34,616 nt of DNA from a virus: positions 1 through 34,616 of IMG/VR virus record IMGVR_UViG_3300009182_000185, one strand, 5' to 3'. The notes under the pieces were generated by a model, which was not told the DNA's origin, did not search any database, and saw only the letters and a program-made list of their open reading frames with translations. Shown in pieces: positions 1 to 33,827 of this stretch. Position 1 is the first letter of the stretch, and each line of letters opens with the position of its first letter. A program made the position numbers and the translations under genes.

Positions 1-688
1 CCCAAACAATAGTACCACTAGTATATACATTAGATGCATCTGCATATGCAGAAATACCAGTTGATGCATTTGCACCACGTAAGTTAATTCCTTTATGCAA
101 TCTTGGAATATTTGGTTCTTCATAGATAGGATATGTGTTAGTTGAAATAGCACTAACTGTATATTCCTGATTAGATACTATAGCAACTACATCTGGTCCT
201 ATTACGGCTTTAATATTATATATATTAACCCCAGGCTGTTGATTAGCATCTTGCTCATACGAGCCGCGCCATCCTGCTTTTATATCTGCACCCGTTGGCG
301 GACCGATTAGAACAAAAGCCTCACCATTAGATGCGTACAATTGCTCTTCTAACGGGTTGTACCATAAATTTCCAGCTGGAGGTGGATTATTTACATTTAA
401 TGGATTAGTAGTAGAAACTTCTAAATTAGCAATACTTTTCCAATCTGTACTGTCATACACATTTATATGTTTTTTTGCGGTATCGTACCAAAGTTCGCCC
501 TCAATTGGTTTACTAGGAGCAGTCGTATTGGCAAAATTTTCTAATAATTTAATAAAACTTTCATTTTGAGATTCACCATATCCTGCATAGTTTCTACCTG
601 GCAGTGCTAAATCTGTAGTTAAATCTAAGGTAGCATCTTGTACCGTAGCAATAATAGATCCGTTAGTTTTATTTAAAATATACGACAT
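1..688 (-). CDS. Tail fibre-like structural protein, partial (C-terminus beyond window)
   Basis: The reading frame opens with ATG at 688 (MSYILNKTNGSIIAT...) and stays open to the window edge, so at least 229 residues are visible and the C-terminus is missing. A good Shine-Dalgarno (AAGGA, 8 nt before the ATG) overlaps the stop codon of the preceding gene. The first ~90 residues match the two upstream neighbours in pattern: a short beta-rich start, a 'GRNYAGYG' turn, 'FIKLLENFA', then 'GELWYDT' and, about 45 residues later, 'GNLWYNPLEEQLYASNG'. These G-x-L-W-[YF]-[DN] hairpins occur as a pair in all three genes. I infer a virion fibre or fibre-attachment protein from this paralogy and from the position at the end of the late structural block; the receptor-binding end is not visible. 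It could equally be a short whisker-like or baseplate-decorating protein. Confidence 0.8.
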   Translation of the reverse strand, partial: MSYILNKTNGSIIATVQDATLDLTTDLALPGRNYAGYGESQNESFIKLLENFANTTAPSKPIEGELWYDTAKKHINVYDSTDWKSIANLEVSTTNPLNVNNPPPAGNLWYNPLEEQLYASNGEAFVLIGPPTGADIKAGWRGSYEQDANQQPGVNIYNIKAVIGPDVVAIVSNQEYTVSAISTNTYPIYEEPNIPRLHKGINLRGANASTGISAYADASNVYTSGTIVW

Positions 689-699
689 TGGGTTAATCC

Positions 700-1680
700 T
701 TAAAGAGTTACTATATTAGTTACAGTTGATAAAATTGTGCTGTAGTAAACATCATACCATCTCCACATGTTAACACCACGATGTAACGGATCGTCTACTA
801 ATCGGAATCGACGCACAGATGGGGTCCCACTATAATTACATATAACTCTTACGTCTGATCCGTATGGATAAGCAACATCATGATAGGCAATAGTAGTAGA
901 AGTTGAAAACAATAAAGGAAGGAAATTGCTAATTGCAATATTTGCTGCTTCTATATTTTCTTTAACTCCGGGGTCCCCAAAAGGTGTAATATCATAATAA
1001 GCAGTTAATGTTTGAATTGGAGGTACTTGTGGTACTCCATTTACAAACAAATTGCCTTTAACATCAAAATCATTTACAATCGTAACACCTCTAACAATAG
1101 TAGAAGTAGTTGCATTATTAAGATACGATGACGAATCAGTTGACGACATAGAAAATGAAGATGTACTAATTAATCCTACAGCAGATCCATGCGAATATAA
1201 TACTCCTACTTTTTGCGGTACATTAGTATCATATTCTCGAATAACAGTAGTAGGCGGCTCAATTCCAAATTTTCCATACAAACCAGATACAGCAGGACCT
1301 ACTAATTTATAAACTAAACCATTCCAAATTTTTAATTGACTATTAATTGTGTCATACCACAAATCCCCAGTTGCAGGAATAATAGCAGGAGTTCCACTTA
1401 CTGTAGCACCGTATGTTGGATTAAACGAAGTTCCATTAAATACGGTAAGTTTTTTTAATGTTGTGTTAAACCATAATTGTCCAATTTTGGGACTTAAAGG
1501 TTCACTTCCAGTAGGTGATGCAAAATTAGTTAATAATTTTACTAAATCGTTATTAAAATATTGACCGTAGTTATCAACATTCTTTCCTATTAAGTCTAAA
1601 CTAGTGGTGCTGCTATCAACTTCGCCATTGGCAATATTTGCTAATACCGAACCATCGTTATTGTATATAATGTAAGCCAT
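700..1680 (-). CDS. Tail fibre-like structural protein, 326 aa (paralogue of both neighbours)
   Basis: Starts with ATG at 1680, 3 nt after the stop of the 585-aa fibre gene, and ends 11 nt before the next paralogue, so the three are probably co-translated from one transcript. Residues 1-75 repeat the family head: 'GKNVDNYG', 'DLVKLLTNFA', then 'GQLWFNTTLKKLTVFNG' and 'GDLWYDTINSQLKIWNG', the paired L-W hairpins. The middle (about residues 160-215) is rich in Ser/Thr, as in beta-structured fibre shafts. The last ~100 residues (from AYYDITPFGDPG) contain an Arg/Trp/Tyr-rich stretch (RRFRLVDDP, MWRWYDVYY) that I do not recognise. No collar domain is visible, unlike the 585-aa neighbour. The likely role is a virion fibre or attachment component, inferred from paralogy and context only. 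Confidence 0.8.
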   Translation of the reverse strand: MAYIIYNNDGSVLANIANGEVDSSTTSLDLIGKNVDNYGQYFNNDLVKLLTNFASPTGSEPLSPKIGQLWFNTTLKKLTVFNGTSFNPTYGATVSGTPAIIPATGDLWYDTINSQLKIWNGLVYKLVGPAVSGLYGKFGIEPPTTVIREYDTNVPQKVGVLYSHGSAVGLISTSSFSMSSTDSSSYLNNATTSTIVRGVTIVNDFDVKGNLFVNGVPQVPPIQTLTAYYDITPFGDPGVKENIEAANIAISNFLPLLFSTSTTIAYHDVAYPYGSDVRVICNYSGTPSVRRFRLVDDPLHRGVNMWRWYDVYYSTILSTVTNIVTL

Positions 1681-1683
1681 AGA

Positions 1684-3441
1684 TTATGTCTTTATGATAT
1701 ATGTTAAATAGCCGCCACCGGATCCAATCGGAGTAGACGTTAACATATCTGGTGTTCTAAATGTGCCAGGTCCTGAAGTTCCATAAGTTGTACCTATAAC
1801 TGAATATAGTACAGGATATGCAGTAATTAATACAGAACTGTGATCACATTTTAAAAATCCGCGGGGAATACTAGTAGAAGTGCCATAGGCTGTAATCATA
1901 CCAGGTACAAATAAATTAGGGTAAACATCAGATAAGAAATTTGATTTAGTAATCTGTTGTAGCGAAGAACCTTGATCACTAATATCTAAAACTGTTAGTG
2001 CATAAGTTGTCGATGCTGCTGACGAAATACTGGGCTGCCCAGCAATAACATCTCTTGTTAATGTAGCATTTAATGTAACTGGACCTGATCCGTTAAAGTT
2101 AACTACTGGTGCAGTAACTTGTCCTTGAATTGAAAAATCATGATATTCAGCTAGACGAAAAGCCGACCCTATTACATCACCATAAAACACATCTCCATAT
2201 ATATCATGTACATGAAGTTCTCTAAATTTATAATCAAGAGACCCAATATCATATGCATTCTCTCTTGCTGGTTCAATAATAATTCCATTACCACCAGTTG
2301 TACCAACTGTTAATTTTCCTGTAGATGCAGATGTACCAGAAACTACTAATCCAGTAGAAGAAATTGAGCCGCCAAATGAGGCTCCACCACTAACCGATAG
2401 TGCAACTGATGTATTAGTATTAATGGTTACCAGCCCTGAAAATCTTCCACCGCCGGCAACATCTAACGCAGGAGAAGTTGAAGTTGGGGATTTGTTTATA
2501 CCAACGCTTGCATATCCTGAATTGAATTTTAAATATGATGAAGATTCAATTCCTAATTTTAAGGTAGCAGCATTTGATTGAGTAGCAAAATTTATATATG
2601 CCGAATTAGTTAAATCACTATATATCTCGATAGAATCACTAGTAGCCGTTGGTCTTATAAGTAGCCCAGTTGTAGATTCGATACTAAGCGAACCAGTAAG
2701 AGTTTGAGTTGCATTATTCCTTAATACTTCACTGGCATTAAATACTACACCTGATGACAATGCCAGTGCTGATGCTTTTTCTGCGAGTCCATTGTATTTT
2801 GCTGGAACTCTATTTGTTAAATTTGTACCAATTTTAATTGTTGCAAATCCATCAATAACGGTTCTAGGAGTAAATGCATTACCCGAAATAATTTCAAATA
2901 CTTTACCATTCAACCAATTTAAAATAACAGGAACTGTATCACCTGTTGAAGTTTCAATACTAACTGCCTCTGTTCCAGATTTGAATGTTCCGGCTTGAAC
3001 ACTAGGACCAACAATTGTCCATTTGTCATCAGTTCTAATTTTTAGTTGATTAACTGAGGTATCAACCCAAATATCACCTCTAACAATATTAGTCGTGTAT
3101 CGAATTAGTGGATCATAATCTTGCTGATATATACCGTTAGCACTAGGCCATCTTCCAGTTGTAATCTGCCCATTATTAATCCTCAACACTGGTCTAGCAG
3201 AACTTGTATCGTACCATAGCTGACCCTGTATTGCATGGGCTGGTTGATTTGGTCCTGCAAAATTTTCCAATAATTTTAAAAAATTCTTAGCAGTAGGAAG
3301 ACCATAGTTTGTATATCCCGGACCGACTAATTCTAAACTGGTATCGTAGTTATTAACTCCGGGTCCATTTGACGCTGTTGGAACCGTAATAGTAGCGGTC
3401 TTAGTGGGATCTGAAAAAGATAATATGTAAGGTGATGCCAT
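1684..3441 (-). CDS. Tail fibre protein with C-terminal tail-collar domain, 585 aa
   Basis: Probable host-contacting tail fibre. The N-terminal ~120 residues carry the head shared with the two downstream genes ('GPGYTNYG', 'FLKLLENFA', 'GQLWYDTSS', 'GDIWVDTSVNQLKI'). The central part (about 230-420) is a Ser/Thr/Gly-rich beta region typical of trimeric shafts. It is followed by 'AYDIGSLDYKFRELHVHDIYG', a motif common before fibre tips. The last ~75 residues ('GMITAYG...PRGFLKCD...YPVLYSVIGTTYG...GTFRTPDML') match the phage tail collar domain found in T4 gp12 and many fibre tips. Translation probably starts at the ATG at 3441, preceded by GGGAA 8 nt upstream, 2 nt after the previous stop. The family assignment of the C-terminus is firm; the receptor is unknown. 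Confidence 0.88.
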   Translation of the reverse strand: MASPYILSFSDPTKTATITVPTASNGPGVNNYDTSLELVGPGYTNYGLPTAKNFLKLLENFAGPNQPAHAIQGQLWYDTSSARPVLRINNGQITTGRWPSANGIYQQDYDPLIRYTTNIVRGDIWVDTSVNQLKIRTDDKWTIVGPSVQAGTFKSGTEAVSIETSTGDTVPVILNWLNGKVFEIISGNAFTPRTVIDGFATIKIGTNLTNRVPAKYNGLAEKASALALSSGVVFNASEVLRNNATQTLTGSLSIESTTGLLIRPTATSDSIEIYSDLTNSAYINFATQSNAATLKLGIESSSYLKFNSGYASVGINKSPTSTSPALDVAGGGRFSGLVTINTNTSVALSVSGGASFGGSISSTGLVVSGTSASTGKLTVGTTGGNGIIIEPARENAYDIGSLDYKFRELHVHDIYGDVFYGDVIGSAFRLAEYHDFSIQGQVTAPVVNFNGSGPVTLNATLTRDVIAGQPSISSAASTTYALTVLDISDQGSSLQQITKSNFLSDVYPNLFVPGMITAYGTSTSIPRGFLKCDHSSVLITAYPVLYSVIGTTYGTSGPGTFRTPDMLTSTPIGSGGGYLTYIIKT

Positions 3442-3443
3442 AA

Positions 3444-4088
3444 TTAAATTCCCATGCTAATACTTTGGATTCGTATTGTATAATCAATCTGAATCATTCT
3501 ATTCAAAGATTTTTGTACAGGATGAAATATAACATGTGTTAATAACATACCAAGATTTGGTCCATTTTCAGAATATGATTTTAATCCAAGTTCATCAAAT
3601 ACATAGGCACCATTTTGATTAGTACTATTATCAAATGGCAATTGATCGCTAGGTTCACCAAAGTCTAATAAACAACTTACAAGAACATCAGTATATGCTA
3701 CTCCTGCAATATGGCGAATTTCCATAAAATTTCTTGCAGGATCTAACGACGACGGGCGCCTTGCATCGACTGTTTTGTAATATGTTTGATTGTACAAGCT
3801 AGCATTGCTACCTACTGTATTAGGAGTTAAATAAGTTATAATTCCAGTCGGGTCTACTCTTGTTCCCCCATTTCCAAATACCATTTCTGCTATTGGTCCG
3901 GATGATTGGTTAGAAATACTTTGAGCCAAAGCTATTGAAAAGTTTTCATAATGTATTGCGTTACGTTTATCAATATAAACTTCTTTAGATTGGGGGTCAA
4001 ATATCTTAATATGACCTTGTACACTAACAGTTCCGGTCTCGTTAGTTTTTGATTCTTTAGGTAAATTGCTCATGTGTTTATCATCCAT
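3444..4088 (-). CDS. Small virion structural protein, 214 aa (function unknown)
   Basis: Lies between the giant structural gene and the fibre cluster, 21 nt after the former and 2 nt before the latter, so it is probably a virion component. I do not recognise a catalytic domain. Visible features: an N-terminal segment 'VSVQGHIKIFDPQSKEVYID', a central 'EMVFGNGGTRVDPTG', and a C-terminal beta-rich end 'IQIDYTIRIQSISMG', all suggesting a mostly beta protein. The start is uncertain. The ATG at 4088 lies only 5 nt after a late-promoter-like GATAAATA octamer. The second ATG at 4073 (MSNLPKESK, 209 aa) is preceded by GGATGA at good spacing and would fit a transcript starting near 4088. The longer form is given because nothing excludes it. 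It may connect fibres to the baseplate, but that is inference from position. Confidence 0.8.
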   Translation of the reverse strand: MDDKHMSNLPKESKTNETGTVSVQGHIKIFDPQSKEVYIDKRNAIHYENFSIALAQSISNQSSGPIAEMVFGNGGTRVDPTGIITYLTPNTVGSNASLYNQTYYKTVDARRPSSLDPARNFMEIRHIAGVAYTDVLVSCLLDFGEPSDQLPFDNSTNQNGAYVFDELGLKSYSENGPNLGMLLTHVIFHPVQKSLNRMIQIDYTIRIQSISMGI

Positions 4089-4109: not shown

Positions 4110-7100
4110 TTATCCGCCATAATAGTATTTGTTAGGCAATGCTGCTTCGTGTTCACGCATGAACCTTGCTTGTATTACTTCACTAGTTAACAACGATTCA
4201 GTTCCAGTCCAAACTTGACCTTTTTTCTGTACAATTGTAATATTAGTATTAATATTAGAAGTAGTTGATACATTTAGAGTAATCTGTTGAATTGCAGGTT
4301 TAATAAAAGTCAATGGCCATGTTATCACTATTGAACTTGCAAATCCAACTCCCCAACCATTAAACAAAGTATTATGTCCTGAACTAATAACTGTATATTT
4401 GTATCCATTAGCATCCTGCATAATCCATCCAGGTTGTATCTGCATAGTATCTGCATTTTCATGTAATACCCATCCTGATCCATATTGTACCCGACCGCCA
4501 GTCACCATTTCAGTAACTAGTACAGTCGTTGGCGAATCATTGTCAATACTAAATTCCGGAGGCAATATCGATATACTTGAAGATGTTGTATCGTATGCCT
4601 TTGCAGAATCGTGAACTATTAGTTCAGTTTTACGAAGTTGTCTACCTCCATAATATACGCTGATTTGATCAATAGCTGCAATTCCCGGAGTTAATATAAT
4701 ACCATCGCCTGTAATACCATTTGTAACTGTATTAATGACATATGTTAACGCAGTAGTAGAAGTAGTTTGAACTAAGGTTAACTCTTTGGTTTCAATAGTT
4801 TGTTGCAAACTTTGATCTAATACAGTAGTTCCCGCATTAGATATAATAGCAGGGCCTGTTCCTAATGTACTTCTTCTTAATTGACGCAGTACATTTCCAT
4901 CCTTAACCATAAACTCAATGCGTTCACCATTAATTAATACTATACCGGGCTTATTTGTAAGTGGATTAGGAGGAATTAATTTACTAGCATCTGTTACATA
5001 AATTTCAGAATCAGTATAGTGCAATGGTTGTGATAAAGTTGTGCTATAGAATGAAGATAATCTTTTGTAATGCGCCCTGTTAAAAATATCATTGAATACT
5101 CTAAATCCTAAAACTTGACTACCGTAAGATGGCGGATTAACAGTTGTTATCAAAATTTCACGTCCACTATTAACTGAATCACTTAATTGAATTGTACGAA
5201 GATCATCTAATATTTCAAAATCATATCTAGCAGTTAATGGAATGCCGTCAACATAGACCCAGACATAATTATCATACAACGCTGGGAACGATAACACATA
5301 TCGGCGATATGCATTTCCATCAAATCTTTCTGTTCTAATCATCATATTATCGTGATCAGTAAAAGAAGTAACTTTTAATGTTGTATTTTTAACGGGTGTT
5401 GCTAATTCTAAAAGATTGTCAGTAATTACATATTCATAATTAATAACACCTGTTATGGCAAGTGCATCTCCGTTTTTTAATAAATTAGTTGCAACAGTTA
5501 TTGTGCTATAATCACCATCTAGTGTATAATCAAAACCTGGACGCAATTTTACACCATTAACAAACACCCTTACATTATCCATATTATATGTATTTGTGGG
5601 ATGCTCGTGTTTGTTGTCAATGGCAAACGTTGTTTGATTACCCCTAACTTCGTAATAACTTGTCAATGGTGGTAATAACCGTTTTCTAGAGTATGGTGTT
5701 TCTGGTAAACCCAATTCAACAATTGTTTGATCACTTACAGGTTCTTTAGCGCCCGGTACAGTAGTTAAATTGAATCTAGATTGCAATATTGAATTTATTG
5801 CAAAAAATTCTTCATGTACTCTGTTAAAATTTGTATATACTGATTCAAAAAACCATGCTTCAATAGTATGCTGAGACATGCTAAGATTAAATATTGCAAC
5901 CCCAGCTCGTTTATTATTCACGCCTGCGTATGATAAAACATATGCACATTGAGAACTAGGCGTATTATTAGTAAGCATGCCAATTTCATTTCCGTCTACT
6001 AGTACATATGCTTTACGTATATCGTTTACACTAGCAAGACTTTCTACAAATGCAGTAGTAGTATTATTCACTACTACCATATTGCTATCAATAACTGACC
6101 TATCTCCCCCAACCCCAACCATAGTGTATCCTGCTCGTCCGGGGTACACACTCTGTGGTGCTAGATATATTGTATTTCCAACTATGTAGTATTGATTAGA
6201 ATCAGTAAATGCAAACGGATTCTTAAAAGGATCAAATTTACCCTGACCAGCATACTGCCAGTTTCCGCCATTTTGCGTACTATAAAATACATGACTAGTA
6301 TTATTTAATATAGAAGTATACGGAATCTGAACAAATTCAGTTGCATTAGCAGTGGCAATGCCGGTTATAAATCCTTGATCGCCATTAAAGTTTGTACCCC
6401 TCCAAGCATTTTCATAAATCATCTCAACATATTGGTCAACACCATTACTATATAACGTGACTTCATACTCGTATGCTGGACACGTTGGAAGAGAATCTCT
6501 TTGATCATAATGTGTTCCTTGGAATCGTAATCTCCAATATGTAAAATCACCTATTGAACCATTACTAAGGAATAATCCTGGAATTTCGCCTGTTGATAAA
6601 GGTTGAAGGTGAGAACCAAGGCTTTGCCATAAATCGCAAAACTCAATAAAGATAGCCGGATGATCCAATGCATCAATAGTTAATGGTGTATATTCAAAAT
6701 TGCCGCCGCCGAATGTTAAATATCCGTTTGTTCCAACATATACCTGAGTATAAGTAGTACCAAACATATTCCACGACATATTTAAAGGATATGGGCCAGT
6801 AAATGTGTCATCCCCCGCATCAGATGCAATAGGGGTACCAACTGGTCCAACCGGTACCGCAGGAGACGAATTAAAATTTATACCCTGTCCTATATTTTTT
6901 TCAGAAAGTCTATTAAATATTTTTCCATTATAATGAACCATTACTCCTGCAAAATTATCAAGAGGCATACTCAATGTTGCAGATGTGATAGCATTTGTAG
7001 TTACTGGAAATGCTCCGGACATTACCATAGCATGAGAATCTGATGATTTAGTATAAACATCAATACCTAAACTATCAGCGACATTCCCCTCAACTAGTTC

Positions 7101-10100
7101 TTCGGGTGCATAACCAGAAGAACTATTTAAAAATGAATCTCCGTCAATAATCATATCTGTAGGGTCTACGCCTAGGGCACCCATTAGTCCATTAGTGTCC
7201 CATGATCCGCCAGCAATAGCGGTATCTAATCTAGAAGCGAATGTATCAGGTTTCCAAAATTCAACAGTAGGATTACCATATATAAAAAATTCTAAAGAAT
7301 ACAAAGGATTATACATTTGATAGAAAGATACTATTGCTTTTCCATCAGTATCTGCGGTCATATGATAATATTCAGCTCCGGGATATGGGCCAATGATTGG
7401 AATACCCGTAAGCATTTCATTAGGCAATCCATCTTTAAATATTTTAATTTTAGTTATATCACTATAAAAAATATTTAATTTGACTTTAATGCGGTTACCT
7501 ACAATTGTTGGATACGTTTGAATATTGTGCTCTATTAAATTTTCAAAATTGCTAACTGCCGACAATAGTGTTGTAATAACCGCAGTTGCTGATAAACTAA
7601 TTATCGAAGTAGTTGTTGAAAGTATAGAAGTTGCAGTAATTGCAAACTGATCAGCATCTAAAATTGACGAAACAGTATACGACCCGTTATATCCACTGGA
7701 TGTTATTCCACTTATGTTTATTTTATCGCCGACATAAATTCCACCGTTAAATGGAGGCAACGTTCTAATAATTATTTGTGATCCAACAGTAGTTGCAGTA
7801 GACCTTGCATCTATAATTTTAAATGAAGGTTTACTTATGGTTATTGAATTAGCTCCAGTATTAACTGAAGTAACCACTGTATCTGTTCTAAGTCTTAATA
7901 ATGGAGAATTTAAAATATTAATAATTTGACCAGGGACAATATTAGTAGTAGTATTAAGATAAAGAGTAGCAGTACCAACTTGAGCTGTTTTTGTTAGTTT
8001 TGCTGTAGCATAATAACTTACAAGATCATTCCACGCAGGTGCAGTTATATATTCACTAGGGTCAGTAGAATCATATTTTCCAATATCCCAAGGTGTAGAA
8101 TAATCAAATGGAAGACCTTGCAAAACTGATCCCGGATATACCGTTCCTGTCATCAACGAAGATAGCGCAGAGGTTCCTGTGTATAATTTGCTAATACGAT
8201 CTACTGCGGTATATAAGTTGATATTTTTATTATATGATATTTTAAATACCTGACCCGCTAATGGAACATAATTTAAGAACAAAAATCTAGAATATTTTTT
8301 ATTATAACCATTATATTTTTCTGTATAATATTCAATTTTGTAATCAGAAGATAGAATTAATTTTCCATCTAGTGTAGGCGTAATATTTAATTTGTTAGGT
8401 TCTGCTAACCAAGAAAGTACAAATTTATCAGTTAGGCCAGGACATATAAATGTGTCAGTAACTTGAGTTTTTCCAATTTCTGGATGTGCATTTACTCTAT
8501 CAAATTTAATACCTATTGTATTTTTTCTAATTGTTGAATTTAATAATCTTGCCGAAGCAGTAGCAGTGGAAGTAACTAACGGGCCGCCACCGGATATAGT
8601 AACCGTTGGATTTTGTGTATACCCGGCACCTGGATTGGTAACTAGAATTTGATGAATGCCACCATTTCTAATATACGCTTCACCCGTAGCGGTGGAAGTA
8701 ACTAACGGGCCACCACCGGTAATAATAACTGTAGGACGTTGTGTATATCTCGTTCCCGGGGTTGCAACTTCAATAGATCCAATTTGCGAAGTATAATTAT
8801 CAGACCATGATTTCCAGGGTTGCTGTCCTAATATATCGGTGTCTGCAAGAGTAACAACATCAAACTGATTAGTTGCTGTATTAAAATATGAGGGTAAATC
8901 AAAATCAGTTGAACTTAAACTAACTCCGTCAATTGCATTATCTAAATAATTATATTTAGAAGTATACGTTCTAATTTGACTATGATAAGGTTTAATTTCT
9001 TTAATATAATCTTCAAAGTATTGTTCATTATCGAACTGATAAACGGGTCGCTGATCTAATGATCCAATCACATTTGTGACATTAATAAATGAAGTTTTAA
9101 ATGCCCAATCTAACAATTTTTGTTCAGTTAGTGCATATTTAACAGCAGCAAAGAAAAATAAATTCCAGTTAATTTTTAATTCGCCAATGAATATATCATT
9201 TTTGAGTGCAGTTAAAATATAGAACAATTCTAAATCTGGAATTTGATCGTATAGAGTACCGTCCAATGTAGCAATGTCATAAGAGTAATTCAGCAAATTG
9301 TAATTCCAAATAGACTCGCTAATTTTTATTGTACCCTTTTCGCTGAACACAATATTATATTGTGGAGAAAAATTACCAACTTCTGTATCAGTTAATTTTT
9401 CAAGAATAATAAAATATTGTCCATTATCAATTGCATTGTTAATTTTTACATAGTCGCCCGCTTTTACATCAGTAAGTGATGCTAGGTCTGATACTGCAGG
9501 AATTACGTATGCATAATTTTTAAATTTTTTAAAATTGTCACTTGCCCAATCAACTTTATTCCAAAATTTAGTAGTATCGTATGTTTGATTTTTGACCCTA
9601 ACCCACCAACTGCTGCGATCAGTATTAGAACGGATACGAGCAGCATAATCAAAGTGATGTTCAGTCCATATACCGTTATAGTTTTCGTTAGCTATGACAA
9701 TAATGGTATGCGGACGTACAATTAATTGCGGAGCAGTTGCAAAACCATAACCCGGATTTACAATAGAAACATTAATTACTTCACCGTCACTATTAATTTC
9801 AGTTAGAAGTTCTGCTGAAGTATTTGAAACCACAGTAACTTTAGGAGGTGTAGAATAACCATAACCTGGAGAAATAATATCTACTGCTGTTATTTTACCA
9901 TTGTTTACAAAACATTCTATTATCGCTTGAGAATATTTAATAGTAATAGCGTCATCTATTGTATCAATAGCTGCAAATTCTTCAACTTTAAAATCAAACC
10001 CTCTTAAGAATGGATCTGGAATTGGATCTTTACTATTCAATGTATTAAAATTATAGTTGCCAACTATTCTATTTTTAATTAGTACTGAATTAGTAAACTC

Positions 10101-13100
10101 TACAAGATTTCTTAATGCCTGTATTCTATCTTTAAATAGAGACTGCTGAGGCCGTATTCCTAACCCATATCTATTTCTGTATGTTAATTCAGTAGACGGA
10201 ACTACACGGCCTGCATCATCATGCCCTAACAAACTATCAATTAGTTTCTTTTCAAGTAATGGAGTTGGTACATCATTAGCATCACCTTCTGCTAATAATA
10301 CCCATTCAGTGTGTCTAGGAATTTCGTTATTAGTAGTATCAATTGCAATATTAGCATTAATTCTACTGCCTACTAGCATAGGTTGTATATTAGCAAATGC
10401 TATACTATTAGATGATAGAATTTCAGCAAATTTTAATCCATTTGCTACAGGATCTGCAATAATGCTAGATACTTGATAACTACTTATTCTTCTATTTTTA
10501 ACAGAAGGTACAGTAACTTTATTTTTGACCCAGAAGAAATAAACATTTTCAAATGCGTTAGTTACATTATTAAAAATTTGTTTAATAGAAACCGCACTGT
10601 TATCAGGATACTTAGGTTGGCCGCTGATACCTTTAGTTAATCCTTCATTTGTATCTGCTTGAGCTGCCCATTCGCTAGGTAATAGATCAGATTTAACCCA
10701 TTCAAATACATCAATGTTTGACCCCGGGAACAACTTGCCCCAATTATTCTTTCTAAAAATATCATCGCCTTGTTCGTACCACACGTATTTTGTAGTGCTT
10801 AGGTCCCACCATAATTCGCCAACGTGCTCATCAATCCAACTGGTACTTGCATCAACAATATTAGCAGCCAGTCCGATTGTATAAGTTGCAGGATCAAATG
10901 CTGATTTATATTTTAATTCCTGTTCAGCAATACCTGCAATTTTTCCCTTTGCGGGATCAATAACATCAAGATATTCAACTACTTCTTCTTTTAAAGAATC
11001 AATCAATGCAATTCGATCTACAGTAGAAACATCTACAAGATCATCTTGCTGTCTGATTACATTCCAACTGTTCATAGTTGAATCTATTTTGCTAAACTGA
11101 TATATTCTAGAATTATCAGTACCTAAAGAAGTATCAGCAGTAGGTGCACCTATTAGTACACCAAGATTAGTGGCAACTACAGAACTGCCATATTTACTGC
11201 CCGGTATTACTGATGTATCAAATAATTCTTCTGCTTCAATAAAATATCCATTTAAATTATTATAAACATATACTGAACCTGCATCGGGTAGGTAGTTGAT
11301 AACTTGTGTTATGCCACTATCAAATATAGTTTCACCCGCTTTAGAGTCTTGATCAAATTTTAATATTTCAGTACTGTTTACACCTAACGCACTTATCACT
11401 AGCGTATTATTGTCTTTGCTAATAGAGATTGCAGTTCCAAATTTTAATTCATTGTGACGCAATGGGTTTGATATAATTTGATGCAATGAATAAGTATTTG
11501 GTCTGTTGTAAAAATCTCCATTACCTGTTCCTGTAATAAAAGATTTGTCAGAAGTCTTTGATCTATTAATTTCACCGCTAATATCAACTGCTTCAAAGAA
11601 TATAGAATCTAATAATGTATAATCACCACCGTGATATGAATTTGCATAGTTTACCCAATTATATAATCCTTCGGCATCAGGAGTTCTATAAAGACCCCAA
11701 CGTTCGTACCCGTGCTGAACTCCAAAGTAATTATTGCTCAAATAGTATCTTTTGGCAATATTTTTACCTAATTCAATTTGTGCATTAGTAAGCCCGTACT
11801 CTACTCCCCAGTTATCATAATTGTAAGTATCTGCAATATTATATACCGCAACTTTACCGTAAGGTTCTCCTATAACTTTAGTGTTTGAGGACGATATAAA
11901 AATAAACTTACCGTCAGGCGATACAGCAACATCGTCGCCAAATGCATCGTTAGTTCCAAACGGTGATGAAATAGTTTGTAACCATGATAAGTTTTTATCA
12001 AACAATTGTACAATGCCAGTATAGTTATTACCTTTATAATAAGGAGCACTAATAGCAATAACATTACCAATTGTATCACCTGCAATCTTATGACCAAATT
12101 GACTTCCAAGTGTTAATGCAACATGGGAGTTAAGATTAATCCCAGATGCATGAGCAGTCACGGTTGATGCAGAATTTACAAAATATGCATAAACTTTACC
12201 AGTACTCGTGTTGATACTATCTCCAGGGGCACCAACTAATAATGTGGTAGATGTGTTAGCTAGCGGCTGATTAATATATATCGAATGTCCAAATCTAGCA
12301 TGGTTAGCAGTATTGGACGTAGTAGCATATGGATTAACTAATACTACTTTTGAAAGTTCTCTATATACCGAATTGAAACTATTAATTTCTACTAGACCTT
12401 CATATGCATATGATTTAATATTACCGTTACCGGTACTGGTAATAGCAACACCGGTTGTACTGCTTGGTCCTCTAACATTACTAGCAGCAGGTGCTCCTGT
12501 AAAATATAATCCCTTATTATGATCGTATGCAAGTGAATGCCCAAATTCACAAAATGCACTACAATATGTTAAACCGTTGGTGTTTAATGCATATTCAACT
12601 TGTTCTTCTAAATATCCAGTAGTCTTATTTTTTGTATATACTCGGACAGACCCAGTACTAGTTGCATCTGGAATTTTCCAACCTGGAGATGATGCCAATA
12701 CAATATTTGTATCATCTGAGGTATATATAGCTCGGCCAAGATGTTGATTACGTGGACTATTCACTGTATCATATACGCTAGATGATAATGAGTAATTACG
12801 AATCTTTTCGTATACTTGCCACTTGTTATCAACTCCGTCATCTATCCAGATTTTTTCGCCGGCTTTTAATTTTAAAATATCTTTAGAATTAGCAAGATTT
12901 TCAAGACTACTATAACGTGCATTTTCAAATTTAAATAATGCACCGTAACTTAATAAGTCTGCATTAACAATAGTACTTAAAGTAGATGCTACTGTAAATT
13001 GATCTAATCGAGGAATAGCAGTTACAATGTGTATTCCATTCACCTGTTCATTAAATTTAACTACCGAAACAATATCACCTACTGATAGCCCATGATTAAT

Positions 13101-16100
13101 ATCGGTAGAAAATGTAATATCAATTGCCGGAGAACTTATATATACACCTGCAATTTTAGCAGTTTGGCGAGAGTATCTACGAATTCCCCAATCACCATTC
13201 TCTAAAAATCCTAACCAAACAGTATTACCTTCTTGAATTAATTCATTATTTGCAATATCTAATAAACTATTTTTGTTATATGCGGTAACGGTAACATCAT
13301 CAGATCGTACATAACCTGCGTTAGTTAATTCTAAATTATTATTAACTAATGTTCCTGCGACTGTAGTAAATGTTGTGTCTACAGTATAATCGTCAGGCGT
13401 TAATAAAAGAGACGATGCAGGTACATAACTAACTAAAGGATTAGCATTAGTTGGTATATTATTAACAAACTTAACAAGTACTGGATTTTCTAAAGTAGTA
13501 ACTTCGTTTAGTGTAAATTCAATTTCTTTATAAGTATTGAAACTTCCGTAGTTACCTACTCTAAATGCCCAGTCTTCGTTGAATGTTATATCACCTTGAC
13601 GAGAAAATTTTCCAACTTTAGATAATTTGTCAATGGCCCTTTTAGTACCTTTTTCTCTAATAAATCCTTGATAAAATTTATACTGACTAATAGAGTTAGA
13701 AAAAATATTATTAAGATATGTACGAGGTGTGTATCCAATAAGATGTTGTGCTAATTGCTGTTCAGCAGCATCAAAATTATCAATATCTAAACTATAAAAA
13801 TCTTCAAACTGATCAATTTTATAATCAAAATTAGGTAACAAATTAGACACTGGTTTACCATCTAATTTGGCCCATTTGGCAAAATCAAATACAGCATCGC
13901 CGATAATCTTAACATTAGATTCATAGTATGAGCCATTATAACGAACTACTTTTCCTGGTAGATATGTTTTATATGCCGACCAATCAGTGATATTAACAGA
14001 ATCATAAACAAATCCAGGACTAGATAAATCACCATTCCAATTAGCGGTTCTAAATCCAGATAGTTTAATTCTTCGTTGTTTATATCCTGTTTCTATATCA
14101 TATATAGTATCATTGAATATTGTAGAATTGTTAAAAACCATTGCATGTTCTTTTTGTACAGAATTTAATGTAGCAAAGAACATACCGTCTAACGTATCAA
14201 TTGTATTAATTGTACAAACACCATCTTCTCTTGATAAACGGAATTTATCAATAGGAAATGATGTACCATCAGCTTTTAATAAACTGTATTCATATTTTCC
14301 TGTAGAAATATCATCAACAATAGAATCGATATATGAATATTTTAAATAATCAGCAAATGGGCTTAATGTAATTAGGTTACCATCAGCCCAATTCTGTGTG
14401 CTCCAGAATAAGAATTCCTTTCCGGTGAATTTCCAATCAACAATTTCTCCCAAATCATTATTATATTCGTCAAAAATAAATCCTTGCTTTTCTAAGAATG
14501 CACCATATCCGACCAGCACATCGTAAACATCTTGAATTGTAGAAAAATTAGTACCATAAGAAATTCGAGTTACGGTTGGTTCAAATTTATTAGTTGTTTC
14601 GACTGTTGCACCGCCAGTCATCGGTAATGAAGGAAGTCCTTGAAAATATGTCAGATCAAAAGTAGGTTGTGCAGTATGTCCAATTTTTACTACATAATAC
14701 TTTCCATTGTATCTTACAATTTGACCTTGCTTGTAATAATGGGTAGTATTAGCTGTAGTAGATGTAATGTCAATTGCAACAAGACCGCGGTTGCCATTAT
14801 TTACTGTACCTGTCCATTCAGTAAATGCCGCTGATTTACCGCCAATAGTAATAGCACCCGATGAAGAAGTTTTTAGTGGTTTAAAAATTTCAAAGTAAGG
14901 ATTAGATTTATCATAACCTTTAATAATAAATTTGCCTTCAAATTTTTGAATAATTACACCTGAGATACTAGCAGACTTAATTGGATTACTTACATTTAAT
15001 AGCAACGTATAATCTTCAGGTGGAAGAATTGCCCCTTGAGATTGAGATATAGGATCCACCGAGTCAATAATAACCTGAAGCTTATCCTTGCTGGCAAATC
15101 CTCCTAATTTATGGAATAAGTTAAAATTAATGTAAGATAAATCTTGTTTTAAAGATGCAACATAATTTAAATCTTTACTCTTTCCATGCTCAACAACATA
15201 AACTCCATAACCGGCAATTTGAGATTCGCCGTCTATTTTCAACTTGCTGGGATTTATGTAAAGATTATCCGAATAAGTTACTTGTCCCGGTACGTTAAAA
15301 GTTTCAGAACTAACGTCATACATCAATGCAGTATAAGAGCAAGGATCAAGTAATGCTGCTGCAACGTTAGCAGCAAACGGCCAGTAACTACTTCTTCTCC
15401 ATGCAGTTTCTGCTGGTCCCTGGTCGCCAAATTTCCAATTGGCAATCTTATTAGAATATTCTGGATAAGCACCAAAAATAAATGATGGATCTTTTAACAC
15501 TCCGGTATCATTAACTGGGATAATTTCAGACAAGCCGGGTCTTGCATATGCTGATAAGATATATGCTCCGGCTGGGTCATTTACTGTTCCTGTTTCTAAA
15601 TCAGACCATAAATTAGTATTGGTTGACGTTACTGTATCACCGTATTGATCGTACCACCAAGTTGGGGCACTAGAGAATCCTAGCATCTCCCACGGACGAA
15701 TGTCAGGACGGTCAGTATCATAAAAATGCTTGTATATCCCCCGTATGTATCCTGGAACAGGTTTATTTGAAAAGGGATTAACCATACTACCATAATTCCA
15801 GTTATATAAATTACCCTCGTTAGTTATATTGTTAGTGGTTGCATCAATATTATATACACCCGTCCACTTGATAAAATCTTTTGTTAAAATGTCAGTGACA
15901 TCGGATAAAGAATATCTGCTTTCTCTAAATGCGCCAGGCATCGATGCCGTAATATCAAAAATTTTAGAATTATAAGTTACTTTGATGTTGTTATAGATAC
16001 GTTTTTCAAATTCAAGAATAATAGCGTCTCTATAATCATCATAGGCTTTCATAATGCTACCATCGTGACCACGGATAACAGCCACTGTAACATCACTATT

Positions 16101-18681: not shown

Positions 18682-21600
18682 TTAAGTTCCGCTTGTTGTT
18701 ATAATTGATGAAGAAGATTTTAATTTTGATGCAGTGACAGCATCAATAATTTCTATATCGGCAATCTGTGCTCCACTAATAAACAATTCATTTGATAGGC
18801 AAGTAATTTCGTATAAACTTCCAAAACTATTATTAGTAACAGGAACAATAACAAAATTAGTGATATCCGGTGTAAGTAAATTCATTACATATGTAGACAA
18901 TTCACTAAAGTGAAAAGATTGTCCAAACTCCCAATTTTCTAATGCAAAGAACTCGTTAATTGCTGATAGAATACGTGTTTTCAAATCATTATCAGTAGTA
19001 ATTTTGTTAAGATTTTTAACTGCTTTAAATTTTGCTTGCAAATTAATATCAGCTGCTGAACCAAATAATATTTTATAATTTACAGGATGAAAAATTATTT
19101 CATCACTAATTGCTTTGATTGGATTCAATGTTGAAAGATAATTTTGTGATAAACTCTGACTGGTAGGCGCAACAGGCTTACTAGATAGATTGCCTAGTAA
19201 CCAACTTCTGATATCATTGTCATATGCCGTAGTCAGTACATATATATCAATGATATTCGATTTGCTCGGATCAATTCTTCTTTCTTCGCCGCTATTATGT
19301 TCATAATGGAATTTAATATTAGATCTACCAACTCTACCATAATATTGATCGGTATATACTAAAGATGCAGTAGCGTTAGACCAATACTTTACTACATTCA
19401 AAGAAGGGTTATAGAAATAAAATAATTGACCATCTATCTTTTCACTTGCTAAAACATTACTTTCAAATTGATGCGGAATAATATCATCATTAGTTAAACT
19501 ATATCGTGTACTAGAATTTACCTGTTTAAAGTAAACAAATTGTGATTCTGCAACTTCATTAAAAGAGTTAGGATCTAATATTTGGCCGGTATTTGTTTGA
19601 TCATAGAAACTAACTTTTACTTTTTTAGGTTCTATATATCCATCAGATTCAATTACAGGACTATCAATTTGCCAAATGTGATCATATCCTAATCCCGTTG
19701 TGCTAGTGGCAGTTGTAGCATTAATAGATAACACAATAATTTTATCTTTAATTACTGAATTATTTGTAAAATCATAATTTACTGATGAGGGATCATTAAA
19801 GAACGCAGTTTCTTTATCACTTTCAAAAATGTAATTAAGAATTCTATATTTTACTTTATAACCTTTACCCGTCCATACAAATGCAACTAACCAACTGGCA
19901 TCCAATCCTTGGTCCTCTACATTATTTTGATTTGATAAACTATACGGATTAGTTATATCTAAATTAGAGTTAAGAATAATACCCCACTCTCTTGTATATG
20001 CATCAATTGTTAATCCAAAATTTCTATTTGTCATACAAATATTTGCAATTTCAGTTTCAATTGAATAATTTAAAATATTATTATATTTGTAAATAGCCTC
20101 AGAAGGAATACTCCCTTGAGGAACTCTTGTTGAAAATATAATAGGACCAGTTCCGTCAGCTAATGTACCAGATCCATAATTTGAGCCGTCACCTATAACC
20201 TGTTTAACTGTGGCCCAAATATAAGGGCGGCTGTTGTTTGGAATTACACCGTTTATTTTGGTTTTTAATACATTCTTTTGATCAAAATATTTTCCAGTTG
20301 GTGGAAGAAATTTTATAATAGACCCGGGTACTAGATACTGCAATGCACTTTTAGAATAGGTTCCAACTGATGCAGGGCCGTAGGTGTTACTAAAATAGCC
20401 GCGACTTTCTCCCGGAGTTTGAGTTGATTCTGTCCAAATTAATGCCAGCGAATCTAAACTAAATCTATTATAGTGATCTAAATAAAAGGAGCGCATGTCA
20501 TTCGATGCAACTATAGGATTTAATTTATTTTTAATAATTGATAAAACTTGATTTCTACTAGTAAATTCAAATTCAAATTCGTGTGTATTATCTTCTTTGT
20601 ATAAAATACCATCAGTAGCAAATATATTTGTTTTACTATATTTTCCGCTAACATCCGATAAATCAAAATACTTGCTTAATCCGCTAGATACTCTATTAAC
20701 ACTTTTAATTTTAAGAATATCAGCACCAGCTTTCAACGGGGCGATATTATAATCTTCACCCGTGATCATTCTATTTTGTGTATAATATGTTTGCGGTGCT
20801 TTAGTCTGTATACTGGTATTAGATTCTGGTCCAGCACTATTGGTAACGGTATATTGCAAACTTAATGTCATTTGCAATGTATGAGATTGACCAACAGAAT
20901 TTGTATACGGGACTGAAATTACAACTCCGCTCATTTGTTCTGGTTTAATTACATATTTTAATCCGTTACTTTGTCTATAGAATAAGTTAAAATTGCCCTT
21001 AGGTAAATCACCAAACACTCCATCGGCAAAATTTAAATCAATTTGATCTTGATCACGGGTACTGATAGCATATATAGAACGCAGTTTTTTATTAAGACTG
21101 TTATAAATTATATTGTTTCCCAATAAAGAAGGAACTTGAGACCATAGTGTAGAAAATGAACCAGTTTTATCTAATTGCCATAACCATGTATCGGTGTCAT
21201 TGATATCGGGTGTATTGACACCTACAATTTCATTAGGAACAGGATTATCAATGCTAAAACGAGCAACACTTAAACTGCCTTGTTTAAAATGTGAAAAGAA
21301 TCCAGTATTAGCACTAGCACTTCCTTGATTATCATTTTTGTAAACAATGCTAAAAGGATTAGCAGGTGTCGGTGCTTCTTCGTAAATATAAGTATTACCT
21401 GCAAACGTAGCAGGAACTACTTCAAAATTCATAGAAGTGCCGTTGATAGTTTTAGAGAAACTAAAAATAGGAACGTCTACATTAGAGCTGTTAATTCTAT
21501 ATTGTTCAGTTTCAACAGAATCTATAGTAGCCCTATCAGCAGGATTTCCAAAATTACTAGACATTGCAGAATTCATAATATTAATGAATTGCTGATACCA

Positions 21601-22050
21601 ATCCGGATTAGTAGGATCATTCCATCCTATTGTGGTATTTGCTAAATTGGTCCCATTAGAATCAAAAACACTATCAGTTGTAGAAATTGCAGTAACTTTT
21701 AAGAATCCGCTTGCTGGTATGTTTCTAGTAGGATTGTAACTGATTAATTGAGCAAGTCGTAAAATACTATCACGACGTTGAGCAGTTTCTAAAAAGTTTT
21801 CACGTGCGTTTAAATCAATACGAAAACTTAAATTTTGACCTAAGAAAGCAATTACATCAATAAGAGCAATGTATTCGCTGCTATCGATAAAATCGTTAAA
21901 CTCTTCAGGATATTTTTCCTGAAGATACGAAATCATTGTACGACGAAGAGTTTCAAAGTCGTAACTTTTAAAGTCGGCATTGCGGAAAGATTGGTAAACT
22001 TTTTTCCAATCTTCACTGACCAGTAGTTTTGTGTTAGTTGAAGGAATCAT
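18682..22050 (-). CDS. 6: Baseplate wedge protein gp6-like, 1122 aa
   Basis: T4 gp6 is the wedge subunit that links neighbouring wedges into the ring around the baseplate hub and belongs to the J-like baseplate proteins. The N-terminal ~130 residues are typical: 'DFKSYDFETLRRTMISYL', 'YPEEFNDFIDSSEYIALIDV', 'FLGQNLSFRIDLNARENFL', 'AQRRDSILRLAQLISYNPTR'. The remainder is beta-rich. The C-terminal part has 'ISDEIIFHPVNYKILFGSAA' and 'TRILSAINEFFALENWEFG', as expected for the J/gp6 family end. It is clearly longer than T4 gp6 (about 660 aa); the extra length lies in the middle. It is followed after 1 nt by the giant gene and preceded by gp25, as gp25-gp6 neighbours often are. A late-promoter-like AATAAATA lies 14 nt before the ATG. 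No strong Shine-Dalgarno is visible. Confidence 0.92.
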   Translation of the reverse strand: MIPSTNTKLLVSEDWKKVYQSFRNADFKSYDFETLRRTMISYLQEKYPEEFNDFIDSSEYIALIDVIAFLGQNLSFRIDLNARENFLETAQRRDSILRLAQLISYNPTRNIPASGFLKVTAISTTDSVFDSNGTNLANTTIGWNDPTNPDWYQQFINIMNSAMSSNFGNPADRATIDSVETEQYRINSSNVDVPIFSFSKTINGTSMNFEVVPATFAGNTYIYEEAPTPANPFSIVYKNDNQGSASANTGFFSHFKQGSLSVARFSIDNPVPNEIVGVNTPDINDTDTWLWQLDKTGSFSTLWSQVPSLLGNNIIYNSLNKKLRSIYAISTRDQDQIDLNFADGVFGDLPKGNFNLFYRQSNGLKYVIKPEQMSGVVISVPYTNSVGQSHTLQMTLSLQYTVTNSAGPESNTSIQTKAPQTYYTQNRMITGEDYNIAPLKAGADILKIKSVNRVSSGLSKYFDLSDVSGKYSKTNIFATDGILYKEDNTHEFEFEFTSRNQVLSIIKNKLNPIVASNDMRSFYLDHYNRFSLDSLALIWTESTQTPGESRGYFSNTYGPASVGTYSKSALQYLVPGSIIKFLPPTGKYFDQKNVLKTKINGVIPNNSRPYIWATVKQVIGDGSNYGSGTLADGTGPIIFSTRVPQGSIPSEAIYKYNNILNYSIETEIANICMTNRNFGLTIDAYTREWGIILNSNLDITNPYSLSNQNNVEDQGLDASWLVAFVWTGKGYKVKYRILNYIFESDKETAFFNDPSSVNYDFTNNSVIKDKIIVLSINATTATSTTGLGYDHIWQIDSPVIESDGYIEPKKVKVSFYDQTNTGQILDPNSFNEVAESQFVYFKQVNSSTRYSLTNDDIIPHQFESNVLASEKIDGQLFYFYNPSLNVVKYWSNATASLVYTDQYYGRVGRSNIKFHYEHNSGEERRIDPSKSNIIDIYVLTTAYDNDIRSWLLGNLSSKPVAPTSQSLSQNYLSTLNPIKAISDEIIFHPVNYKILFGSAADINLQAKFKAVKNLNKITTDNDLKTRILSAINEFFALENWEFGQSFHFSELSTYVMNLLTPDITNFVIVPVTNNSFGSLYEITCLSNELFISGAQIADIEIIDAVTASKLKSSSSIITTSGT

Positions 22051-22092: not shown

Positions 22093-22530
22093 TTATTGTA
22101 CCCTTAGGCCAATCTTTTGATCAAACGCTAATTTTAATATCGAAGTTTCATTTGTATTTTTCATTGCTAGAGTAATTTCAATAAGATATCCTTGCGGATA
22201 TTCGTTGATTACAATTTCTAATGGATATGTTCTAGGATCAGAATTACAAATATTATTAATGTCTTGAGTAAGTAGTTCTTTAATTTTTGGAGTCAATGGC
22301 TCCATTAAAATATCCCAAATTATGGTTCCAAACGTAGGATTCATTACACGCTGCCCCTTGCGTGTATTAAACTGATTTAACAAATCTTGTTTAATTAAAT
22401 CAAAATCGTACATCTGCGATCCTCGGTTAGTAGGATTGACTGTGCTAAAACCTTTGTAGAATTGGCTTAGTTTATCAGTGTGTTGATTACTATAATTGGT
22501 AGTATTAATTTCAAGATTCTTGTAGGGCAT
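22093..22530 (-). CDS. 25: Baseplate wedge protein gp25-like, 145 aa
   Basis: gp25 is a small wedge protein of the lysozyme-like fold that is conserved across contractile injection systems and forms the core bundle with gp6 and gp53. The signature is clear: 'YDFDLIKQDLLNQFNTRKGQ' then 'VMNPTFGTIIWDILMEPLT', corresponding to the 'TRKGSRPFDPEFG' region of T4 gp25, and a C-terminal beta portion 'YPQGYLIEITLAMK'. Length is close to T4 gp25 (132 aa), with about 13 extra N-terminal residues. The ATG at 22530 is the only usable start, since the next Met is inside the conserved core, yet no Shine-Dalgarno precedes it. A perfect late-promoter octamer ends only 4 nt upstream, and the preceding gene stops 17 nt upstream. 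Translation may depend on coupling to the spike gene. Confidence 0.92.
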   Translation of the reverse strand: MPYKNLEINTTNYSNQHTDKLSQFYKGFSTVNPTNRGSQMYDFDLIKQDLLNQFNTRKGQRVMNPTFGTIIWDILMEPLTPKIKELLTQDINNICNSDPRTYPLEIVINEYPQGYLIEITLAMKNTNETSILKLAFDQKIGLRVQ

Positions 22531-22542: not shown

Positions 22543-22559
22543 ACCGGTTAAGAACCGGT
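22543..22559 (-). other. Stem-loop spanning the stop codon of the gp5-like gene
   Basis: The minus strand forms ACCGGTT-CTT-AACCGGT: a perfect 7-bp stem with a 3-nt loop, with the TAA stop of the spike gene running from the loop into the 3' arm. It is not followed by a T-run, so it does not look like a classic intrinsic terminator. It may act as an mRNA-end or processing hairpin between the spike and gp25 genes. Confidence 0.5.
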
Positions 22560-30497: not shown

Positions 30498-30522
30498 CTT
30501 TTAAATTTCTATCTGCTAAACT
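30494..30522 (+). promoter_or_regulatory. Possible weak promoter before gp47
   Basis: TTGACT (30494-30499), 17 bp, TAAACT (30517-30522): 5 of 6 and 4 of 6 consensus bases. The -35 box overlaps the gp55 stop codon. It could give the recombination genes extra expression, but read-through from the upstream promoter is sufficient. Confidence 0.3.
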
Positions 30523-30541
30523 CGTTATTAGGAGATAACTA

Positions 30542-33333: not shown

Positions 33334-33631
33334 AGAATTAGAAAAATATAAAGCGTTATATTCAGAATTAGTCTCCCACTTTGTAGATTTACATAACTAT
33401 CATCATAAGTTTATAGAATGGCCTAGCACATTCCATGGTCCTAGAGCCCGTAAAAGCATTAATGAAATGATTGATGTGGCTATAAAGTTACGAAGATTGT
33501 CTGCTACTGTGAGTAGAGAACATGAAAAAAATGTACTTGAAGGGCGCAGAGCAGAAAAGAAAGAGAAGGCAAGAGTTAAAAGATTGCCAAAACAACGAGT
33601 AAAGTTGAAAAAGGAAAATAAAAATGAATAA
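33323..33631 (+). CDS. Small basic protein, 102 aa (function unknown)
   Basis: The ATG at 33323 is used rather than a TTG 6 nt upstream; the start lies inside the last codons of gp46 (11-nt overlap), pointing to translational coupling. The N-terminal half (MSNEELEKYKALYSELVSHF) is helical and amphipathic. The C-terminal third is strongly basic (RRAEKKEKARVKRLPKQRVK). A central segment, 'RARKSINEMIDVAIKLRR', aligns with 'RARKALAEMSKLIKARRNE' of the next gene, so the two look like diverged tandem paralogues. A DNA-binding or nucleoid-associated role is inferred from charge and this relation only. Confidence 0.7.
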   Translation: MSNEELEKYKALYSELVSHFVDLHNYHHKFIEWPSTFHGPRARKSINEMIDVAIKLRRLSATVSREHEKNVLEGRRAEKKEKARVKRLPKQRVKLKKENKNE

Positions 33632-33824: not shown

Positions 33825-33827
33825 ATT

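Follow-up and report, generated by a model that had tools for sequence, protein, structure and literature searches.

A tandem array of paralogous, probable baseplate fibre genes with slot-specific N-terminal heads in a probably T4-like phage

The 34,616-nt stretch of IMGVR_UViG_3300009182_000185 analysed here (the window) carries three tandem minus-strand ORFs with homologous N-terminal heads (Table 1). Judged from their sequences, the three genes would be old, specialised paralogues rather than versions of one interchangeable anchor, and we consider it probable (about 65%) that they encode paralogous, probably trimeric fibres or pins on the baseplate rim of a T4-like myovirus. Relatives keep the order of the array, which suggests roles at the base of the virion that were divided up long ago, and not a set of freely swappable tips. 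The original prediction, a common attachment module with exchangeable receptor-binding ends, is thus partly supported.

Table 1. The head-gene array and its upstream neighbours in the window
Feature	Position	Strand	Details
Gene 1, head, shared neck and collar-domain fibre	1684..3441	-	585 aa
Head of gene 1	3001..3441	-	residues 1-147
Neck of gene 1, common to gene 3	2806..2994	-	about residues 150-212; hhalign probability 95.8
Collar domain PF07484 in gene 1	1741..1902	-	residues 514-567; 53 bits, cut-off 24
Gene 2, head and variable end without known domain	700..1680	-	326 aa
Head of gene 2	1291..1680	-	residues 1-130
Gene 3, first 229 aa only, open at contig end	2..688	-
Head of gene 3	296..688	-	residues 1-131
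Marker gene, phrog_11259, directly upstream of gene 1	3444..4088	-	214 aa
Giant virion protein, phrog_10938	4110..18680	-	4,856 aa; occupies the place of T4 gene 7
Baseplate wedge protein	18682..22050	-	phrog_10646, phrog_219
Baseplate wedge gp25	22093..22530	-	PF04965
gp5-like baseplate hub with chitinase-class (GH19) lytic domain	22548..24827	-

With gene 1 as query against the window, gene 3 was recovered at E 2e-12, gene 2 at E 4e-11; the gene 2 head shares 36% identity with the gene 1 head and 36% with the gene 3 head. Three tandem paralogues with a common head had been predicted, and these values bear that out, except that the head spans about 130 to 147 residues, not 100. Paired G-x-L/I-W hairpins are present in all three heads. 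Each of the three proteins contains the pattern G-x-[LIVM]-W-[YFWV]-[DNS] two times; the giant protein has it once (residue 2621), and it is absent from the other 10 CDS listed in the window; shuffled sequences lead one to expect 0 to 0.007 occurrences per protein for genes 1-3, and 0.06 for the giant protein. Together, the search E values and the motif shuffles rule out a chance resemblance of the heads. The profile of head family phrog_14394 matches the N-terminal part of gene 3 (E 7.5e-9), gene 2 (E 7.5e-6) and gene 1 (E 2.6e-8), while that of phrog_15511 matches genes 3 and 2 only.

Behind the head, a second stretch is shared by genes 1 and 3 (Table 1, with gene 3 taken from relatives); the corresponding probabilities are 70.2 for genes 2 and 3 and 42.0 for genes 1 and 2. 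Beyond this neck, hhalign found no similarity among the three genes (probability 0.1 to 0.3, gene 3 again from relatives), although by BLAST some gene 1 and gene 2 tails are alike (10/79 first-slot and 11/77 second-slot tails). The proteins had been said to differ entirely behind the head, with a collar domain in only one of them. The window bears out neither statement, since its gene 3 breaks off at the contig end and the far part of that gene cannot be judged there; moreover, the neck and some tails are alike. Within the window, the collar domain was matched by gene 1 only; among relatives, 48 of the 52 gene 1 members carry PF07484 (E 0.01). Gene 2 is the most variable of the three. A single one of its 52 members matches Mtd_N (major tropism determinant), at 18.5 bits and under the cut-off of 26.3, and a fold comparison of the hairpins with Mtd_N gave Z 3.2-3.4 over 41 residues.

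The fold of the heads was modelled for gene 2 and for the gene 3 of a relative. Both models run from two strands through a helix to hairpin strands, but their quality is low (pLDDT 42 to 62 over the first 50 residues; pTM 0.46 and 0.38). By sequence, no credible solved relative of the heads was found (best E 3). The gene 2 model has no PDB fold match at E 0.001 and no T4 chains among the matches listed, and its best VIA match, CBA120 TSP3 (Z 4.9 over 39 residues), is too weak for a family name. In a library of predicted viral structures it has 29 matches at E 0.001, including one from Atu_ph07 and others from uncultured phages whose names refer to collar, Gp10 C-terminal or chaperone domains.

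A scan with the phrog_11259 marker gene as query yielded 80 related loci, 76 of which have two to four head genes behind the marker and on its strand. In all, heads were found in 248 ORFs of 81 loci, one per ORF and always on the marker's strand, and the head is N-terminal in all 241 complete ORFs. The heads form slot-specific groups of 55 rows (100/100) and 53 rows (100/95), and the best outside match lies in the same slot for 247/248 heads and 245/247 tails. The result for heads and tails holds without hits of 80% identity or more; near-identical contigs are therefore not its source. A recent local duplication of the array was also rejected, the slots being deep groups. Complete arrays have a convergent ORF within 60 bases of their end in 67/68 cases, and their last gene measures 395-435 aa in 66/68 (range 382-605). 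Array order and copy number are stable over deep divergence, and changes of ends are found mostly in extra copies and between lineages.

Could the ends nevertheless be exchanged on one equivalent anchor, so that a single virion holds several host specificities? In nearest-relative pairs, the outer part diverges faster than the head in 50/51 cases for gene 1 and in 50/51 for gene 2, and the shaft of gene 3 does so in 44/51, as this scenario and the predicted constancy of the heads would have it; the last 130 residues of gene 3 depart from the pattern, being as conserved as its head (73.0 versus 72.7%). Furthermore, the place of gene 1 is held by a Collar end in some phages and by a Gp10_C end in another (see below), a collar end, or an end akin to that of the last gene, turns up in the extra slot, and two ends have been replaced outright (gene 2 of L029 and the last gene of L063). 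Xanthomonas phage XacN1 has six head genes and, according to the accessible part of its description, a host range of nine out of ten X. citri strains tested, but there the authors tie host range to tRNA and other genes. Since almost every head and tail keeps its slot, we regard this scenario as quite unlikely, and the free exchange of the original prediction is not supported: each slot has heads of its own kind, in a constant order. What stands is an N-terminal module common to the three genes and followed by differing C-terminal parts, the heads being homologous and the outer parts diverging faster.

On the other hand, the slots may reflect nothing but a tandem array passed on vertically, with no docking site particular to each slot, and the divergence of the ends a relaxed constraint rather than selection by receptors. 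Both patterns follow from vertical descent alone. We nevertheless hold this for rather unlikely, given the stability of array order and number over deep divergence, and given that heads 1, 2, 3, 4 and 6 of phage RAS14 match those of XacN1 best slot for slot (copy 5 does not do so clearly). In XacN1 the fixed order is less strict, since the tails of copies 4 and 5 share 63% identity with each other, more than either shares with RAS14.

The placement at the baseplate rests on the gp5-like hub and wedge neighbours upstream, on the collar of gene 1 and on the Gp10_C end of its counterpart in phage PA5oct. The operon recalls the T4 rim set gp10-gp11-gp12 (with gp9), encoded by sequential genes behind gp5, gp6, gp7 and gp8; the accessible part of PMC3004832 describes gp10, gp11 and gp12 as sequential proteins of the rim that interact and share a fold. 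T4 gp12 has a collar domain, like gene 1. The common part in the window differs from the T4 set in being N-terminal and visible in sequence, and gp25 lies inside the window operon but outside the T4 stretch examined. The window has gp5-like and wedge neighbours (the wedge protein at 18682..22050 is read as gp6-like from its place), and the places of gp7 and gp8 hold proteins without detected homology. Apart from the collar, hhalign found no homology of the heads, the marker or the giant protein to T4 gp7-gp12, which counts against our reading; these comparisons used 5 to 6 T4-type sequences per protein, with gp7 partial in four of five rows. As a scan of viral contigs with T4 gp11 returned one near-copy of T4, the T4-type sequences were taken from named records. 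T4_gp9_10_N and GP11 match neither genes 1-3 nor their members, and the likeness to gp12 is confined to the collar. A sequence search for solved relatives with residues 1-1,500 of the giant protein found none.

In relatives, where gene 3 is present in full, its C-terminus is usually a chaperone-like domain; the window's own copy breaks off before this domain. For residues 300-428 of the L007 gene 3 model, VIA gave 3suc (Z 14.3, rmsd 2.3, 115 residues) and 3gqh (Z 14.1), and in this model the last 130 residues have the fold of the C-terminal fragment of phi29 gp12, its chaperone (Peptidase_G2). Sequence identity to phi29 gp12 is 18-20%, and a Peptidase_G2 Pfam match (E 0.01) is seen in only 5/51 gene 3 members. 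By sequence, neither the C-terminus (best E 1.3) nor gene 3 as a whole has a credible solved relative, and no T4 chains were among the fold matches listed by Foldseek or VIA. It may be argued that such proteins sit on the capsid or neck, as decoration proteins or head fibres: in the Foldseek ranking, capsid cement proteins come first (8hdt_G, E 9e-5), ahead of 3suc (E 3e-3), VIA also retrieves HFTV1 8qsy (Z 12.5) and the phi29 head fibre gp8.5 (Z 9.1), and PHROGs files phrog_14394 under 'head and packaging'. The Foldseek ranking and the PHROGs category weigh against a baseplate rim. However, the best VIA match is phi29 gp12, a tail spike, the upstream neighbours are baseplate genes, and gene 1 and its PA5oct counterpart carry ends found in T4 gp12 and T4 gp10 respectively. 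We therefore consider capsid appendages very improbable.

The head recurs in other jumbo phages. Pseudomonas phage PA5oct (Arenbergviridae) has the same operon: the giant protein, phrog_11259 (gp357; E 3e-45), then two head genes, gp358 with a Gp10_C end and gp359 with a C-terminus of gene 3 type (E 1e-44). It differs from the window in having two head genes, one-hairpin heads, and Gp10_C in place of Collar; no head was detected in gp360, and the slot assignment of its heads is ambiguous. Both head proteins are noted in the record as detected by ESI-MS/MS, in line with the predicted co-occurrence in virions. Atu_ph07 (gp176), Phosso (292) and RaK2 (ORF065) each have a single head gene with the marker homologue directly upstream (ORF064 in RaK2). 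The giant protein comes just before the marker in Atu_ph07 and Phosso, while that of RaK2 (virion protein ORF070) lies some 6 kb off on the opposite strand; a check of the RaK2 main text for ORF065 in virions met none of the names looked for.

Six tandem head genes on one strand are found in XacN1 (ORF232-237) and in RAS14, and CM1, like RAS14 a Stenotrophomonas phage, has six places. The XacN1 and RAS14 heads form one group apart from those of the window's relatives (100/100), and similarity among their tails extends over about 110 to 200 residues. None of the twelve proteins has a Pfam domain at E 0.01, and no marker homologue was found in the one or two flanking genes examined. The profile matches heads of RAS14, XacN1, RaK2 and PA5oct mainly over the first 60 to 98 of 132 positions. 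Paired hairpins, predicted as a hallmark of the head, thus apply to the window's three proteins, but RAS14, XacN1, RaK2 and PA5oct heads have one clear G-x-L/I/V/F-W hairpin, and those of Atu_ph07 and Phosso two or three. An AU test of one origin for the heads of the window's relatives, set against those of XacN1, RAS14, Atu_ph07, Phosso and RaK2, gave p 0.297 and no decision either way. Copy number across these lineages runs through one, two, three to four, and six.

How might such an array work? In the baseplate reading that we favour, the head would anchor its fibre in the baseplate, with the giant protein or the marker protein as possible docking partners, and every slot-specific head would fit a site of its own, so that order is kept. 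Gene 1 may act as a pin or short-fibre partner, much as T4 gp10/gp12 do, and gene 2 would be the likeliest fast-evolving contact tip. Gene 3 would be folded by its C-terminal chaperone domain, which may then cleave itself off and leave the variable shaft as the tip. The array may have arisen by tandem duplication and specialisation, other ends becoming attached to extra copies. Against this reading, the accessible part of the proteomics on phage MIJ3 names four structural proteins, none of them linked to these head genes. More tentatively, and with less confidence than in the placement itself, we suggest, as a reading less likely than not, that a T4-like rim set was made independently here: in several lineages of jumbo phages a head-bearing baseplate gene would have multiplied in place, its copies becoming tied to docking sites of their own and acquiring T4-type ends (Collar, Gp10_C) or a self-cleaving chaperone.

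The fibres of jumbo phages are poorly annotated. No tail-fibre homologues are reported in the accessible part of the XacN1 paper, and yet six genes in tandem in the XacN1 genome belong to the head family. Should the heads be docking modules, they would offer a sequence handle by which baseplate fibres of uncultured phages may be found, together with a graded copy-number series in which the evolution of multi-fibre baseplates may be studied; slot-specific heads predict distinct docking sites. If a rim set was indeed made independently, these arrays would be a living series of the common-fold origin proposed for T4 gp10-gp11-gp12, where the sequence signal has been lost.

The three probable tail-fibre genes at the left end of the window, a viral record of 34,616 bases (table below), share an N-terminal head. 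With gene 1 as query, a search of the window matched gene 2 (E 4e-11) and gene 3 (E 2e-12), and the common region, which extends to residue 130-147, contains an L-L-x-N-F-A helix and a pair of G-x-L/I-W hairpins. Models of gene 2 (mean pLDDT 83.6, pTM 0.46) and of gene 3 of the related locus L007 (78.4 and 0.38) agree in the placing of two strands, one helix and the hairpin strands, although confidence is low over the first 50 residues. The original prediction described paired hairpins in this head. The pair is indeed present in all three proteins, with one further, single copy in the giant virion protein (G-E-L-W-W-D, residue 2621). However, RAS14 and XacN1 carry related hairpins in other large proteins, without the remainder of the head, and the heads of several named phages have a single hairpin only, so that the pair is not peculiar to this head, nor is it found throughout the family. 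The parts behind the head had been described as wholly different; the neck, however, is common to genes 1 and 3 (the share of gene 2 is more doubtful). Beyond the neck, profile comparison of genes 1-3 found no similarity, although a BLAST match to some first-slot tail was obtained for 11 of the 77 tails from the second slot. In the open-access literature, of which few full texts were covered, we found no earlier description of the head family.

Genes of the array, their neighbours in the window and counterparts in phage PA5oct
Feature	Coordinates	Strand	Length (aa)	Remarks
Gene 1	3441-1684	minus	585	
Gene 2	1680-700	minus	326	
Gene 3	688-2	minus	229	cut by contig end
Marker			214	upstream of array in reading direction; phrog_11259
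Giant virion protein	4110-18680		4,856	upstream of array; phrog_10938; CBM_5_12 match; FG-GAP-like stretch, the latter below cut-off
Baseplate wedge protein				upstream of array; read as gp6-like
gp25				upstream of array
gp5-like hub	22548-24827			upstream of array; chitinase-class (GH19) lytic domain
Late sigma factor, SbcD- and SbcC-like genes, SegE GIY-YIG homing endonuclease	29586-34256	opposite		
PA5oct gp357				marker, E 3e-45
PA5oct gp358				head E 1e-23; Gp10_C E 1e-23
PA5oct gp359				head E 2e-24; gene-3-type C-terminus E 1e-44

The marker scan matched at least 599 stretches and gave at least 594 relatives, of which the best 80 loci were kept. With the window, these 81 loci hold 248 head-bearing ORFs, all on the marker's strand and with one head apiece: three per locus in 52 cases, four in 19, two in 6 and one in 4, some contigs ending early. 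In each of the 241 ORFs that have both a start and a stop of their own (the seven cut ones left aside), the head starts no later than residue 15. Among the 68 complete arrays with at least three genes, 67 have a convergent ORF that starts at most 60 bases from the end of the last gene.

Position in the array (slot) is closely followed by sequence. In a midpoint-rooted tree of 177 non-redundant heads, built on few columns, 55 first-slot heads cluster together (100/100) and 53 last-slot heads make up a second cluster (100/95), the remainder being middle and extra copies. The best match in another locus falls in the same slot for 247/248 heads and 245/247 tails, and removing matches of at least 80% identity leaves this unchanged; the exceptions are an unmatched tail and L076, where the single gene is of the middle type. 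It follows that the arrays are both old and ordered. In L076, the only head gene behind the marker (10612-11385) is of the middle-slot type, as though the first-slot gene were missing.

Distal parts vary more than heads among relatives. Over 51 nearest-relative pairs per gene, the heads were closer to each other than the tails in 50 pairs for gene 1, 50 for gene 2 and 33 for the last gene; the mean differences were 14.9, 17.5 and 5.0 points, respectively. The shaft of the last gene, from the head up to the final 130 residues, is 62.8% alike, compared with 72.7% for the head and 73.0% for those 130 residues. Changed ends also occur: gene 2 of L029, compared with L017, has a matching head (72%) and no tail match, and the last gene of L063 (15038-16186) has a last-slot head without the usual chaperone-like end. 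For the last genes of L018, L031 and L039, matches to the extra-slot ends in four-gene arrays score 126 to 150 bits, against up to 97 for other last genes, which suggests exchange. The extra gene of L083 bears a collar.

Among members, Collar was found in 48/52 for gene 1 and Peptidase_G2 in 5/51 for the last gene; for gene 2, no domain was found save one sub-threshold Mtd_N match. For the last-gene fold, Foldseek placed capsid cement proteins on top (8hdt_G, E 9e-5), with phi29 gp12 (3suc) at E 3e-3, and VIA placed phi29 gp12 on top (3suc, Z 14.3, rmsd 2.3 over 115 residues; 3gqh, Z 14.1), followed by HFTV1 8qsy (Z 12.5).

The marker also immediately precedes a head gene in Atu_ph07 and Phosso (markers 48-49% identical to the window's) and in RaK2 (ORF064, E 5e-57). 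The head profile matches once in RaK2, once strongly in each of Atu_ph07 and Phosso, where weak hairpin-only matches also occur elsewhere, and at six places in CM1. The RaK2 head gene, ORF065 (L084:8866-10098), has an annotated start overlapping ORF064 and a head only from about 40 residues in, so its true start may be later. According to its published description, the Atu_ph07 head gene (gp176) lies in a virion-protein-rich cluster (CDS 170-215). Radical SAM and neighbouring genes follow the head gene in Atu_ph07 (L085:12388-18435) and Phosso (L088:11618-18426). PA5oct also has a giant virion protein; its record notes ESI-MS/MS for gp355, gp357, gp358, gp359 and gp360, and no head was found in gp360. 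In RAS14 and in XacN1 the array runs to six tandem head genes; these match the profile chiefly within its first 60 to 90 positions, and their tails have about 110 to 200 residues of mutual similarity. RAS14 heads 1, 2, 3, 4 and 6 find their best XacN1 match slot for slot; copy 5 is equally close to XacN1 copies 3 and 5, and the tails of XacN1 copies 4 and 5, at 63% identity, are nearer to each other than to RAS14. The XacN1 authors observed no tail fibres and detected no fibre homologues. One RAS14 head-bearing protein (L086:13685-14728) is annotated as a D-alanyl-D-alanine carboxypeptidase, but a Pfam search of it at E 0.01 gave no domain.

In T4, genes 5 to 12 follow one another in numerical order; small genes separate 5 from 6, and gene 25 is not in that stretch. 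A review (PMC3004832) describes gp10, gp11 and gp12 as sequential proteins that superimpose and interact at the rim, and suggests a common primordial fold. Profile comparison of the heads, marker and giant protein with gp7-gp12 found no homology; the sole match is between the gene 1 collar and gp12 (probability 23.5, E 9e-4), which have the same Pfam domain. The likeness to T4 is therefore one of position, layout and shared end domains, not of membership.

The array is best read as a baseplate-rim set of slot-specific fibres on a common, putative docking head. This head would dock the fibres, which would be trimers, and self-cleavage may occur. One virion may hold several host specificities, as the original prediction proposed.
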